DNA of 64,000 nt. Origin: an uncultured Opitutaceae bacterium. GTDB taxonomy: Bacteria; Verrucomicrobiota; Verrucomicrobiia; Opitutales; Opitutaceae. Position 1 is the stretch's first letter, and each line of letters begins with the position of its first letter. The stretch lies in the NCBI GenBank assembly GCA_903891325.1, contig CAITEC010000118.1:1-64000 (forward strand), written 5' to 3'. The position numbers were made by a program, and so were the translations under genes. Shown here in pieces: positions 19,797 to 64,000 of this stretch. Under the pieces are notes generated by a model. The model did not search any database and had not been told where the DNA came from. It saw only the letters and a list, made by a program, of their open reading frames with translations.

Positions 19797-20627
19797 TCAG
19801 CGAAGAAGCTTCAGTGCGTCGCGGGCGGAAACCTTGTCGTGCACCACCGCCATGAGCGCCCGGGTCATGCCGCCGGGATTGGGGTGCTGGATGATGTTCC
19901 GCCCGTAGACGATGCCGGAGGCCCCCTGGGCCAGGATTGCCTCGGTGCGGGCGAGGATCTCCTCCTCGGAGGCCCTGCTTCCGCCCCGCACCAGGACCGG
20001 GACTCCACCGGCCGTCTCGACGACCTTGTGGTAGGCCGACGTGTCGTCGGTGGGGTCCGCCTTGATGATATCCGCGCCCAGCTCGACCGCCTGGCGGACC
20101 AGGGGAACGATCTTCGCGAGGTCGCCGTCCACCATGTAGCCGCCCGCCTTCGCGTTGGGCTGGAAGACGAGGGGCTCGATCATGAGCGGCATCCCGTAGG
20201 CATCGCACGCGGGCTTCAACCGGAGGATGTTCTGGATGCACTGGTCGGAGACCTCGGGCGCGTTGGGAATCCGGAAAAGGTTGACCACCACGCAGGCCGC
20301 ATCGAGCCGGACGGCCTGCAGGACGGCGTCCTCGAGGATTCGCGAGTAAAGGACCTTCGGAAGCTCGGTCCCGTAGACATTGGCGACATCGGTGCGGAGC
20401 ACCAGGGCCGGCTTCGGCCGGGAGGGATGCCGCTGGAGGTGGGGCGCCTGGCCGGTCGTAAGCTGTATGGCATCGGGCGCCGCGGCGATCACTGTCTCGA
20501 TCGCGCGCGGCAGGTTTTCGATCCCCGGGAGAAAGGCTCCCTCCCCGAAGAAGCCGTGATCGAGCGCCACGTCAAAGCAGCGTCCGGTCCTCGGGTTGAA
20601 GAGACGGTGGAGGCGGGCCTGTTTCAT
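19797..20627 (-). CDS. class I aldolase of the DhnA/FbaB/LsrF type
   Basis: TIM-barrel Schiff-base aldolase of 276 residues. The N-terminal CFDVALDHGFFGEG segment is the family's strand 1 with Asp/His. The predicted Schiff-base lysine is in GADIIKADPT near residue 190. The C-terminal phosphate-binding part is VLVRGGSRA and GASGIVYGRNI. Members cleave fructose-1,6-bisphosphate, 2-amino-3,7-dideoxy sugars or the autoinducer derivative handled by LsrF. The next gene on the same transcript is a sugar dehydrogenase, which favours carbohydrate degradation. Confidence 0.8.
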   Translation of the reverse strand: MKQARLHRLFNPRTGRCFDVALDHGFFGEGAFLPGIENLPRAIETVIAAAPDAIQLTTGQAPHLQRHPSRPKPALVLRTDVANVYGTELPKVLYSRILEDAVLQAVRLDAACVVVNLFRIPNAPEVSDQCIQNILRLKPACDAYGMPLMIEPLVFQPNAKAGGYMVDGDLAKIVPLVRQAVELGADIIKADPTDDTSAYHKVVETAGGVPVLVRGGSRASEEEILARTEAILAQGASGIVYGRNIIQHPNPGGMTRALMAVVHDKVSARDALKLLR

Positions 20628-20638
20628 CGTGATTTGGT

Positions 20639-20758
20639 TTACTTTTCGCCCGAGCGCACTGCGGCGACGAAGGCGAGGATGAGGACGATCACCAGGACAA
20701 CGGTCAGGATCGGCGCCCCGTGCGGATGGCGATGGAAGAGGCTGTGGAAGTGGTCCAT
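20639..20758 (-). CDS. small single-pass membrane protein
   Basis: A 39-residue reading frame starting MDHFHSLFHRHPHG. It has a His-rich cytoplasmic or periplasmic head and one strong hydrophobic helix (APILTVVLVIVLILAFVAAV), then a short charged tail. It lies 31 bp after ppk2 and 11 bp before the aldolase on the same strand. A longer in-frame version would overlap ppk2 and is less likely. No family is recognised. The composition of the helix supports a real gene, but the call rests on that alone. Confidence 0.45.
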   Translation of the reverse strand: MDHFHSLFHRHPHGAPILTVVLVIVLILAFVAAVRSGEK

Positions 20759-20789
20759 GATTGAAGGGGTTTCGGAGACAATGCTTGGG

Positions 20790-21665
20790 TCAGCGCGATT
20801 CGTTGGCAAGCTGTCTTCGGATCGCAAGGAGCTCGCGCCGCTGCGTCGGCGAACGGGGATAGGCCAGGGCCATTTCGCCAAGGGCCTCCAGGATGATCCG
20901 CGAGACGATCAGCCGGGCGTTCGGCTTGTCGTCGGCGGGTACGACGTACCAGGGCGCCGCCTTCGTTGAGGTGGCCGAAAGGCAGGCCTCGTAGGCGTCC
21001 TGGTAGTCATCCCAGCGGGCCCTCTCCAGGATATCCGAGCGGCTGAATTTCCAGTTCTTGTCCGGGTCGTCGATCCGGGCGAGGAAGCGCTTTCGCTGCT
21101 CCTCCTTGGACAGGTGAAGGAAGATCTTCACGATCCGGGTTCCATTGCAACCGAGGTGGCGCTCCAGGTCGCGGATGGAGCGGTAGCGCTTCTCCCAGAT
21201 GTCCTTGTCGGCCAAAACCTCCGCGGGCAGCGGCTCGGACCTGAGAATTTCCGGATGCACGCGGACAATCAGGACCTCCTCGTAGTAGGAGCGGTTGAAG
21301 ATCCCGATCCGGCCCCTCTCCGGCAGGCAGCGCGTCGTGCGCCACAGGAAATCGTGCGAGAGTTCGCCGGGGCTGGGGTGCTTGAAGCTGAACACCTGGC
21401 ACCCCTGGGGATTGACGCCGGACATGACGTGCTCGATCACCCCGTCCTTTCCCGCCGCGTCCATTGCCTGGAGGATCACGAGGAGGGAGTGCCGGCCGTC
21501 GGCGTAGAGGAGATTCTGGGCCTTGCTCAGCCCCGCGACGTGGTCCTCCAGGATCCGCTGGTAATCGGCCTTCGAGTCGTAGCAGGGATCGACCAGGGTC
21601 GGCCACTTCCTGAGCTTGACCTTCCCACTGGGCGGCACGCGGAACTTCCTGGGTTTTATCTTCAT
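20790..21665 (-). CDS. ppk2: polyphosphate kinase 2 family protein
   Basis: P-loop kinase of 291 residues that uses polyphosphate to phosphorylate nucleotides, or the reverse. Walker A is [11 protein letters not shown] near residue 68. The Walker B/lid region is [20 protein letters not shown] near residue 120. A one-domain PPK2 of this length fits class I or III; I cannot separate ADP from AMP preference by eye. Upstream is the divergent ribonuclease gene, so the promoter is within 21666-21726. The gene is probably co-transcribed with the small membrane protein behind it. Confidence 0.92.
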
Positions 21666-21726
21666 GCACCATTCCTATCCGCGCTGAGGCTTGATTTCAA
21701 CCCGTACCCGCACATCGTTTGGGGCG

Positions 21727-23220
21727 ATGGCGAACCCCGACGACCTCTCAGACAAGGCCCGTTTGCAGCGTCTTGCCCGGCAGGAGATGGTGAACCGGGG
21801 ACTGGAGCCCGATTTCAGCCCTGCGGCGATGGCCGAACTCGCGCGGATCACCGGCCCGGCGGTCGCCCCGGCCGGCGCCGGCCGGGACCTGCGAAACCTC
21901 CTCTGGTGCTCGATCGACAACGACGACTCCAGGGACCTGGACCAGCTCACGGTGGCCGCGGAGATGCCCGACGGCGCGGTCAAGGCCATGGTGGCGATCG
22001 CCGATGTCGACGGGCTTGTCCCCCGGGGAACCGCCCTTGATGCGCACGCCCGGCGCAACACGACATCGGTCTACACGATGGGCCAGATCTTCCCCATGTT
22101 TCCCGAGAAACTTTCGACGAACCTCACGTCGCTCGGGCCGGACGCGGACCGGCTGGCGATCGTCGTCGAGATGGTCTTCGACCGGGCGGGCTCGCTCCAG
22201 CACTTCGAGCATTACCGGGCGACCGTTCGGAACCGCGCGAAGCTCGCGTATAATTCCGTGGCGGCGTGGCTGGAGCAGGGGACGGCGCCTCCGCCGGCGC
22301 TGGCGGCCGTCGAGGGCCTCGAGGCTAACCTCCGGCTTCAGGACCAGCTCGCCCAAAAGCTGAAGGCCCAGCGGCACCGCCGCGGCGCGCTCGACCTGGA
22401 GACCGTCCAGGCGCGGCCGATTTTCGACGGATCGATCCTCCAGGACCTCGTGGACGACCGCAAGAACCGGGCAAAGGACATCATCGAGGACTTCATGATC
22501 GCGTCGAACAGCGTCACCGCGCAGTTCCTGGAGGCCCGGGGCCTCGCCTCGCTGCGCCGGATTGTCCGCACGCCGAAGCATTGGGACCGGATTGTCGAGC
22601 TTGCGGCCGAGCGGGGAGGGGCGCTCCCTGCCGATCCGGACTCCCGCGCGCTTGAGGACTTCCTGGTGGCCTCCCGGAAAAAGGATCCTCTCCGCTTTCC
22701 GGACCTGTCGCTGAGCGTCATCAAGCTGATGGGCGCCGGGGAATACGTGGTCGAGCGGCCGGGAATCCCGGTTCCGGGGCATTTCGGGCTGGCCGTTCGC
22801 GACTACGCGCACTCGACGGCCCCGAATCGGCGCTATCCGGACGTCATCGTCCAGCGCCTTCTGAAGGCCGCGCTCTCAAAGGCCCGCTCCCCCTACACCC
22901 CCGCCGAGCTCGATGAACTCGCCCGGCACTGCACGGACGCGGAGGATGCCGCCAAGAAGGTGGAGCGCCAGGTTTCGAAGGGCGCCGCCGCGTTGCTGCT
23001 CCGCAAGCGCATCGGTGCGCGCTTTGACGCGATCATCACCGGTGTGACCGACGGCGGCACCTGGGTCCGGCTCCCGAAGCCGCCCGTCGAGGGGATGCTC
23101 GTGGCCGGATACGAGGGCGCCAAGGTCGGCGAGGCCCTCTGCGTGGAACTGGTGGCCGTCGACCTGGAGCGCTGCCACATCGACTTCAAGCGGGTGCCGG
23201 ATGGGGCGGGGCGGGGCTAG
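21727..23220 (+). CDS. RNB-domain (RNase II/R-type) exoribonuclease
   Basis: Hydrolytic 3'-5' exoribonuclease core of 497 residues. The catalytic aspartate cluster is in CSIDNDDSRDLDQL near residue 60. The C-terminal parts include YAHSTAPNRRYPDVIVQRLL, the highly conserved RNB end. Cold-shock and full S1 domains typical of RNase R are missing, so this is a compact single-RNB protein with a short beta-rich tail. The Met chosen is the ATG at 21727; an upstream alternative would add a basic leader of 12 residues. It converges with a lipoprotein gene 8 bp away. Confidence 0.88.
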   Translation: MANPDDLSDKARLQRLARQEMVNRGLEPDFSPAAMAELARITGPAVAPAGAGRDLRNLLWCSIDNDDSRDLDQLTVAAEMPDGAVKAMVAIADVDGLVPRGTALDAHARRNTTSVYTMGQIFPMFPEKLSTNLTSLGPDADRLAIVVEMVFDRAGSLQHFEHYRATVRNRAKLAYNSVAAWLEQGTAPPPALAAVEGLEANLRLQDQLAQKLKAQRHRRGALDLETVQARPIFDGSILQDLVDDRKNRAKDIIEDFMIASNSVTAQFLEARGLASLRRIVRTPKHWDRIVELAAERGGALPADPDSRALEDFLVASRKKDPLRFPDLSLSVIKLMGAGEYVVERPGIPVPGHFGLAVRDYAHSTAPNRRYPDVIVQRLLKAALSKARSPYTPAELDELARHCTDAEDAAKKVERQVSKGAAALLLRKRIGARFDAIITGVTDGGTWVRLPKPPVEGMLVAGYEGAKVGEALCVELVAVDLERCHIDFKRVPDGAGRG

Positions 23221-61441: not shown

Positions 61442-61810
61442 TCACGGATGCCGCGCGTAGAGCCGGTCCAGTGTCGCGGCCGAGGGCGGCGGCATCGGGG
61501 CCTCCGCGGTGGGCCGCGCCACGCTGAAACGCAGGAGCAGCTGCTCGTTTTCCTTGTCCAATTGCAGGACCTGCAAAATCCGCGTGCGGGCGCGGTCGAG
61601 CGCCGGGCGCCGGGACGCGTCGGGCCGCGGGGCCGCCCGCAGCGCGGCGAGCGATGCATCCAACCGCGCGAGGAGCGCGGCCTTCCGGCCGAGCAGTTCC
61701 GCGCCCGGGGCGCGCTTCTCCTGCTGGAGGCAGCGGTTCTCCTCCTGGGCGAGCCCGTAGAGCTCGTCGCAGATCTCCTGGTGGGCGGAAATGGGATCCG
61801 ACACGGTCAT
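61442..61810 (-). CDS. FlgN-like small helical protein
   Basis: Helical protein of 122 residues (HQEICDELYGLAQEENRCLQ, then long Ala/Leu/Arg helices). It starts within the TPR gene's stop (4-bp overlap). Size, helical content and nearness to flgK and flgL suggest a FlgN-type export chaperone for hook-associated proteins. This is inference; sequence similarity is too weak to prove it. Confidence 0.5.
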   Translation of the reverse strand: MTVSDPISAHQEICDELYGLAQEENRCLQQEKRAPGAELLGRKAALLARLDASLAALRAAPRPDASRRPALDRARTRILQVLQLDKENEQLLLRFSVARPTAEAPMPPPSAATLDRLYARHP

Positions 61811-62820
61811 GAGGGGGGCGGTTGGCGGGGGGAGGTGACCCGGGGACTTTCGGCGGGGGAGAAGAGGGTTGAGAACGTGCGGTCAGTGTTGTCCCGCCAC
61901 TCAAGGTGCGCAAGCCTCCAGGCGGCCATGCGGGCGAGCTCGGAGACCTCGGCCGGCGGAGCGTGGCCGGCGGCGGCGTTGCCTGCCGCGACGATCTGCC
62001 GGTAATCGGAGCGCGCCAGGTCGAGCTGGCCGAGCCGTTCGTGGCAGAGCGCCGTCTGGTAGGTGTCCGGGAGGCGCCACTCCGGGTTGGACGAGAGGGC
62101 GGCCAGGCCCTGGTAGATCGCGAGCGCGTCGAGCGCGTCGCCGTTCTGGAAGAACTCGTTCGCCACCTGGTTGCCGGTGCGCCGCTGCCAATAGGCCCAG
62201 CGCGCGGGGTCCGCCGCGGAATTTGCGTGCTCGGCCCGGAGCAGGTCGAAGGTGACCGCGAGGGCCTCCTGGGGGCGCTTGAGCTGGCGCAGCGTCGTCG
62301 CCAGGAGATAGCGGGCCTCCGGCACATTCTTGTCAGCGGGCCACTCCTCGAGATAGGTGTGCAGGGTGGCAACCGCCCCCTGGTTGTCGCCGCTGAGCTG
62401 CTGCGCGAAGGCGGCCATGAAATGGGCCCGGGCGCGGTCCGCCGGGGCCAGCTCAAGGAGCCGGACGCGGGAGAAATACTTCGCCGCGGACGCAAAGTCG
62501 CCGGACTCAAAGTAGGTCTGCGCAATCTCAAACTGCGCGGTCTTGGCAAGAAGCTGGTAGTGCCCGAAATCCTGCGAGGGGAATTTCAGCGTCGAGTTGA
62601 TCACGCTGTACAGGCAGCTTATCGCCATCGGGTAGACCTCCATGTCGCGCAGGGTCCGTCCGAGGTCCAGGAGGGCGTCGGGGAGGCGCTCATCGTCAGG
62701 GTATTCCTTGATGTACCTCTCGTAGATCGCCACGGCCTTGGTGAGCGAGCCCTGGCGCCGGTGGAGGCGCGCGAGGCCCAGCAGGGCCGACTTTGTCTGG
62801 TAGAGCGGGCGATCCCGCCC
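61807..62820 (-). CDS. TPR-repeat protein, truncated at its 5' end
   Basis: At least seven tetratricopeptide-like helix pairs are visible, for example AVAIYERYIKEYPDDERLPD, LLAKTAQFEIAQTYFESGDF and FAQQLSGDNQGAVATLHTYL. The frame stays TPR-like upstream of the first Met-type codon (62733), reading LYQTKSALLGLARLHRRQGS back to about 62815. No plausible start exists there. The gene is therefore cut at its 5' end, exactly where flgK begins in the other direction. Such TPR proteins often work in envelope or motility assembly. The downstream FlgN-like gene overlaps by 4 bp. Confidence 0.7.
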   Translation of the reverse strand, partial: GRDRPLYQTKSALLGLARLHRRQGSLTKAVAIYERYIKEYPDDERLPDALLDLGRTLRDMEVYPMAISCLYSVINSTLKFPSQDFGHYQLLAKTAQFEIAQTYFESGDFASAAKYFSRVRLLELAPADRARAHFMAAFAQQLSGDNQGAVATLHTYLEEWPADKNVPEARYLLATTLRQLKRPQEALAVTFDLLRAEHANSAADPARWAYWQRRTGNQVANEFFQNGDALDALAIYQGLAALSSNPEWRLPDTYQTALCHERLGQLDLARSDYRQIVAAGNAAAGHAPPAEVSELARMAAWRLAHLEWRDNTDRTFSTLFSPAESPRVTSPRQPPPS

Positions 62821-63779
62821 AGAGCTCCTCGCTGATGGCGCAGGCCAGCGTCCTCACCGGCCGCTTCCAGCAGGTGGACCAGAACCTCGCCCAGGTCGGC
62901 AACGACGTCGGCACCGTGAACGGCCTGCTCACCCAGGTGGCCCAGCTCAACAACCAGATCAACAGCATGCAGGCGACGGCGCCCGGGTCGGCCCTCCAGC
63001 TTGTCGACCAGCGCGAGGGGGTGCTCGAGCAGATCGCCGGCTACATGCCCGTGTCGGTGACCCAGAACTCAAGCGGGGAGGACCAGGTGAGCGTCACGGA
63101 TGCCAACGGCCAGGGCGTGGTGCTCGTGTCGAATGCCGCCGTGGTCAACACCGTGTCCCTTTCGGGCGGCGCGCTCTACGCGGGCTCGCCGCCGTCGGCG
63201 CTGGGTTTCGCCTCCGGCTCCCTCCAGGGCGCCCTCACCGCGGGCGGCGGCGCGGTGCAGGACCTCCGCAGCGCGCTCGACCAGATCGCCAGCCAGCTCG
63301 TGACCTCGGTCAACGCGGCGTACAATCCCTCGGGCACCCCGGGCGGGGACTTCTTCAGCGCGTCGGGAACGACCGCCGGCACCCTGTCGCTCGATCCGGG
63401 CCTGAACGCGGCCTCGCTGACCGCGGGCCTGGGCGGCGCGGGCAACAACACCGTGGCGCTGGCCGTCGCCGCGGTTGGAAACCAGGCCTTTTCCAGCGCC
63501 GGCGGCGACCAGATCGACGGGACGGTCAACCAGGCCTACGCAAACGCGGTGTCGTCGATCGGCCAGGCGCTGTCCACGGCGAACACGAACGTGACCGACC
63601 AGACCGACGTCCAGACGATCGTCGGCAACGAGCGGGCGAGCACAAGCGGCGTCTCCATCGACCAGGAAATGACCAACCTGGTGACCTATCAGCAGGCCTA
63701 CCAGGCCTCCTCCGAGGTGTTCCAGGTCGTCAATGAGATGATGAAAACACTCGAGTCCGCGATGGCGGTCTCGGGCTGA
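62808..63779 (+). CDS. flgK: flagellar hook-associated protein 1 (FlgK), 5' truncated
   Basis: The sequence begins inside FlgK (DPAQSSSLMAQASVLTGRFQ, then QVDQNLAQVGNDVGTVNGL) and continues through the D2/D3 regions to the conserved end VTYQQAYQASSEVFQVVNEM and MMKTLESAM. The first 130-150 residues (the rod-binding N-terminal helix and start) are missing. The 3' end and the spacing to flgL (13 bp) are normal. The protein caps the hook-filament junction. Loss of the N-terminus would abolish function unless the break is an assembly error. Confidence 0.85.
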   Translation, partial: GDPAQSSSLMAQASVLTGRFQQVDQNLAQVGNDVGTVNGLLTQVAQLNNQINSMQATAPGSALQLVDQREGVLEQIAGYMPVSVTQNSSGEDQVSVTDANGQGVVLVSNAAVVNTVSLSGGALYAGSPPSALGFASGSLQGALTAGGGAVQDLRSALDQIASQLVTSVNAAYNPSGTPGGDFFSASGTTAGTLSLDPGLNAASLTAGLGGAGNNTVALAVAAVGNQAFSSAGGDQIDGTVNQAYANAVSSIGQALSTANTNVTDQTDVQTIVGNERASTSGVSIDQEMTNLVTYQQAYQASSEVFQVVNEMMKTLESAMAVSG

Positions 63780-63792
63780 GCGAATCCCCGTC

Positions 63793-64000
63793 ATGCGAAT
63801 CACAAACAACATGGTGACAAGCTCCATCGTGACGGAGCTTCAGCAACTCGAGACCCAGCAGTCGGCCATCCAGTCGGAGGTGTCCAGCGGGCTGGCCGTG
63901 ACGCAGCCCTCGGACAACCCGGAGGCCTTCGGCCAGGTGATCGAGCTCCAGAGCCAGAGCTCGCAGCTCCAGCAATTCGGGCTGAACGCCACCCAGGCGT
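63793..64000 (+). CDS. flgL: flagellar hook-associated protein 3 (FlgL), partial
   Basis: The first 69 residues of FlgL, MRITNNMVTSSIVTELQQLE followed by TQQSAIQSEVSSGLAVTQPS, run off the window edge. The Met-Arg-Ile-Thr-Asn start and the Ser-Gly-x-x-Val-x-x-Pro-Ser-Asp motif are conserved in flagellins and FlgL. It follows flgK by 13 bp, the usual order. Confidence 0.92.
   Translation, partial: MRITNNMVTSSIVTELQQLETQQSAIQSEVSSGLAVTQPSDNPEAFGQVIELQSQSSQLQQFGLNATQA

Follow-up and report, generated by a model that had tools for sequence, protein, structure and literature searches.

At one seam in the window (the whole 64,000-nucleotide stretch of Opitutaceae DNA analysed here), a gene for a TPR protein and flgK meet head to head, each without its 5' part. 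We consider it highly probable that a real deletion of the flagellar cluster left this seam behind as its scar, the two half-genes having most likely been joined by the loss of a stretch that measures ~55-80 kb in relatives and holds nearly all flagellum genes. The strongest argument is a coincidence: the seam joins ancestral neighbours in their ancestral orientation, and the cluster between them is also missing from the genome.

Two truncated genes at one seam

The features around the seam, in order along the window, are as follows:

61442-61810, minus strand: small 122-aa gene, retained as an ORF; it adjoins the TPR gene in many relatives (tblastn)
61807-62808, minus strand: 3' remnant of the TPR gene (Pfam TPR); the 5' part (~95-105 aa) is missing
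62806-62811, no strand: probable deletion seam, between the last TPR-homologous residues (PL) and the first FlgK-homologous ones (GDP) in the alignments
62805-62818, no strand: inverted repeat GCGGG-CGAT-CCCGC, spanning the seam, at chance level
62808-63779, plus strand: surviving 3' portion of flgK, with FlgK_D1 and the C-terminal domain; the first ~155 residues are missing
63793-64000 within the window, plus strand: flgL, complete on the contig (63793-64695)

The minus-strand frame from 61810 to the seam belongs to the TPR family (Pfam TPR_6, E=6.7e-21), and the plus-strand frame from the seam to 63779 is FlgK (FlgK_D1, 5.4e-22; the flgK_ends profile match covers positions 124-434 of 437). 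The seam was placed by alignment to 15 TPR and 16 FlgK relatives: recognisable TPR homology extends as far as PLYQTKSALLG, whose PL codons lie at 62803-62808, and FlgK homology begins at GDP (62808-62816). These alignments confirm that both genes start internally, bearing out the initial annotation, which had described a minus-strand TPR frame running without a start up to the junction and plus-strand FlgK codons beginning at an internal position near 62808. The missing lengths listed above are measured against the same-genus relative G009. The TPR stump, at 62% identity to the intact G009 homologue, is without the N-terminal repeats seen in its relatives; the FlgK stump, starting at profile position 124 of 437, has neither the full length nor the N-terminal helical region of a functional FlgK. 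The latter stump also lacks 8 residues (24 bp) in D1 at ~62891 (62889-62899) that every one of the 16 relatives in the alignment has; this gap may be a second small lesion. Since both frames are still open, with GC3 of 0.89-0.94 against 0.90 in the neighbouring metK, decay of the stumps is not advanced. Both are nevertheless probably pseudogenes, because their starts and upstream regions are lost, and their expression is doubtful.

The inverted repeat does sit at the seam, as first noticed, and its 14 bases occur once in the window; the meaning attached to it falls away. Inverted repeats of the perfect 5+4+5 type number 121 in the window (67% GC), and any 30 bp is expected to contain ~0.38 repeats with arms of at least 5 and loops of 3-8, so finding one on the seam is evidence of nothing. 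We therefore rejected its significance on account of the high chance density of such repeats in GC-rich DNA.

To the right of the seam, contig C118 has just 1.9 kb left: the window cuts off inside flgL, and the contig itself runs to 64695, where the stop codon of flgL lies. Its last 141 bp (64555-64695) recur exactly as the opening 141 bp of contig C63 in reverse complement, which marks a branch in the assembly graph where flgL ends. With its default largest k, MEGAHIT leaves exactly this overlap, 141 bases, between graph nodes that adjoin, and C118 and C63 are therefore probably neighbours in the genome. On C63, fliW (Pfam FliW, 1.1e-27) comes next, then csrA, the latter read from the sequence. 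Through this overlap the ancestral order resumes right of the seam, the succession of flgK stump, flgL, fliW and csrA matching that of G009. Foreign DNA on this side was considered and rejected: GC, GC3 and tetranucleotide make-up are similar either side of the seam with no notable shift, and the best relatives come from the same family.

The interval in relatives and its absence from the window genome

Five relatives within the family (G009, G015, G016, G018 and G046) carry the TPR gene (minus strand) and flgK (plus strand) linked and divergent as at the seam, ~56-77 kb apart. In G009, which belongs to the same genus as the window genome, an intact TPR gene (20417-21775) and an intact flgK (81032-82483) lie divergently on contig C99 with ~60 kb between them. 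The corresponding positions in G018 are 314.6-315.7 kb and 384.7-386.1 kb on contig C25, and in G046 17226 (TPR) and 73497 (flgK) on contig C82, ~56 kb apart. The two genes are likewise divergent in G015 (~77 kb between, FlhA inside the interval) and in G016 (~57 kb between, FlhA located elsewhere).

The G009 interval encodes, in its first part, CheA, FliF, FliG, FliI, an FlgE/FlgG-type hook protein, FliM, FliP, FliR, FlhB and FlhA, and further on a FliA/WhiG sigma factor, MotA, MotB, FlgF, FlgG, FlgI, FliD and a flagellin. Most of it is common to G018, and in both genomes the main flagellar/chemotaxis cluster lies inside the interval, with the same borders, order and orientation: TPR - cluster - flgK - flgL - fliW - csrA. 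Whereas the interval is intact in these two relatives, it is gone from the window genome. The interval is not identical everywhere, given the displaced FlhA of G016 and the different layout in G017, and because FlhA lies outside it in G016 it is uncertain exactly which genes the ancestral interval held.

The window genome is a fragmented short-read-type MAG (3.29 Mb, 140 contigs) with an estimated completeness of 94.7%, so that ~5% may be missing. Searched with G009 proteins, it yielded no FlhA, FliG or FlgI; the initial annotation had proposed looking for the missing 5' parts elsewhere in the genome, and neither the N-terminus of FlgK nor that of the TPR protein was found, the TPR query merely matching the edge of the stump again. 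A second set of G009 queries recovered no FliD, FliF, FliP, FliR, FlhB, FliA, MotA, MotB or FlgG, the sole matches being two weak ones to general sigma factors. The FlhA family model (FHIPEP) gave zero candidates in the window genome and matched four further members of its genus; most sampled members of that genus are without FlhA. Within the 94.7% completeness, then, the interval is absent. The initial annotation held that a real breakpoint here would disable the hook, which understates the case: with the cluster genes not found, essentially the whole flagellum is gone. That the entire cluster and both gene halves went missing through incompleteness alone is possible but unlikely, since such a cluster would ordinarily fill one to a few contigs.

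The same G009-protein search did recover FliW and a flagellin, and the retained flagellar-linked genes are flgL, fliW, csrA and this flagellin. The flagellin gene is an intact-looking orphan on contig C78 (L058:10285-11175), present despite the export, motor and cap genes not being found. As the flagellin lies inside the interval in G009 yet survives on another contig here, either the clean deletion was not the sole rearrangement or flagellin was present in a second copy.

Origin of the junction

Both genes are internally truncated at one seam and, in relatives, flank one interval in the same orientation. Under a deletion, the ancestor would have had the TPR gene (minus strand), the large flagellar/chemotaxis interval and then flgK-flgL-fliW-csrA (plus strand), as relatives still have. 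One end of the deletion would have fallen within the TPR gene and the other within flgK, and removal of the interval (equivalent to ~55-80 kb in relatives) would have joined the two stumps at the cost of both 5' ends. We infer that this happened in one step, that the ends were joined without long homology and, from the open frames and genome-like codon bias of the remnants, that it was fairly recent. Without the genes for the export apparatus, motor, rod, hook and cap, a flagellum would not be buildable and the cells would be non-motile; flgL, fliW, csrA and the unlinked flagellin would be left-overs or act in other roles.

A mixed population, in which the deletion is real in some strains alone and the assembler kept the deleted form, is an unlikely account. 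In its favour, the 141-bp end common to C118 and C63 implies a graph branch near the end of flgL; however, with an undeleted strain present the contig would be expected to break at the seam, not 1.9 kb later, and cluster contigs of that strain should remain, whereas none is in the bin. Strain mixture is in any case compatible with a real deletion: it overlaps the best explanation and concerns how widespread the deletion is.

That the seam is a chimeric join, two true contig ends wrongly fused while the flagellar cluster is merely missing from the bin, had been raised in the initial annotation and strikes us as quite improbable. In its favour, the MAG is of short-read type, in 140 contigs and 94.7% complete, the contig ends 1.9 kb past the seam at an assembly branch, and flgK is likewise split over contig ends in another MAG, G005. 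Yet among all pairs of positions in 3.3 Mb, the join links ancestral neighbours of one cluster in their ancestral orientation; all cluster genes sought are absent, and no contig ends carry the missing halves. Moreover, no 12-18-mer at the seam recurs within the window, and composition is similar on its two sides.

The proposal of an inversion or deletion breakpoint holds for its second half, which is strongly supported by synteny, the absent interval and the resumption of gene order past flgL. An inversion that joined the missing 5' parts elsewhere would fit two 5'-truncated genes pointing away from one seam, but we rejected it as exceedingly improbable, as the reciprocal junction with the TPR and FlgK N-termini was not found in the assembly and the ancestral relative orientation is kept, although inverting a segment that ended in both genes would have altered it.

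Flagellar loss by large genomic deletion occurs in many non-motile bacteria, where, as here, a contiguous flagellar block is gone and stumps of the border genes are left. The present case differs from known deletions in its setting, an Opitutaceae-type MAG, in having both borders within ~6 bp, and in keeping flgL, fliW, csrA and a flagellin. The kind of event is already well known; what makes this case of interest is how clean its borders are, together with the TPR gene, whose presence follows that of flagella. Titles and abstracts on flagellar loss in Opitutaceae held nothing directly on point; one study describes two large deletions, neither of flagellar genes (PMC4628258).

The TPR gene and flagella across the family

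Across 150 genomes of the family, the TPR gene and FlhA occur together in 75, the TPR gene alone in 9, FlhA alone in 4 and neither in 62, a strong co-occurrence (Fisher p ~6e-27, uncorrected for phylogeny). In most genomes with the TPR gene alone, that gene is full-length, which means either that its tie to flagella is not strict or that these assemblies are incomplete. The N-terminal part is kept in 78 of 80 homologues from named genomes, the exceptions being one at a contig edge and that of G011.

Genes truncated at the 5' side are also found in G011 and G142, which like the window genome are FlhA-negative and have retained this TPR gene at its 3' side, its 5' part being replaced; their breakpoints differ from that of the window, and their upstream sequence is unrelated. 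On contig C101 of G011 (L071:2786-3910), the TPR part is fused in frame to a stretch of 60-odd residues; Pfam matches are confined to the TPR part, and none of the compared loci contains a homologue of the fused stretch. No FlhA, FlgK or FlgL was found in this genome, and its truncation lies near a contig end, which makes the case less secure. The gene in G142 (C259:10656-11678; L169) is cut off at its 5' side by unrelated sequence.

These cases suggest that flagellar loss repeatedly ended inside or near the TPR gene. The 122-aa protein encoded next to it (61442-61810), which has no Pfam or NCBIfam match, is possibly its flagellum-linked partner. Taken further, the TPR gene and its 122-aa neighbour might form an unrecognised flagellum-linked module of Opitutaceae, with the TPR gene a recurrent border of independent flagellar deletions; we put forward this combined reading only tentatively, its border part resting on 5' truncation in three FlhA-negative genomes with differing breakpoints.

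If the seam is read as a deletion scar, it catches one route of flagellum loss, by deletion of a block rather than by piecemeal decay. It also shows that synteny by itself can suffice to interpret a broken-looking hook gene in a MAG, and it draws attention to a TPR gene whose distribution in the family follows that of flagella.
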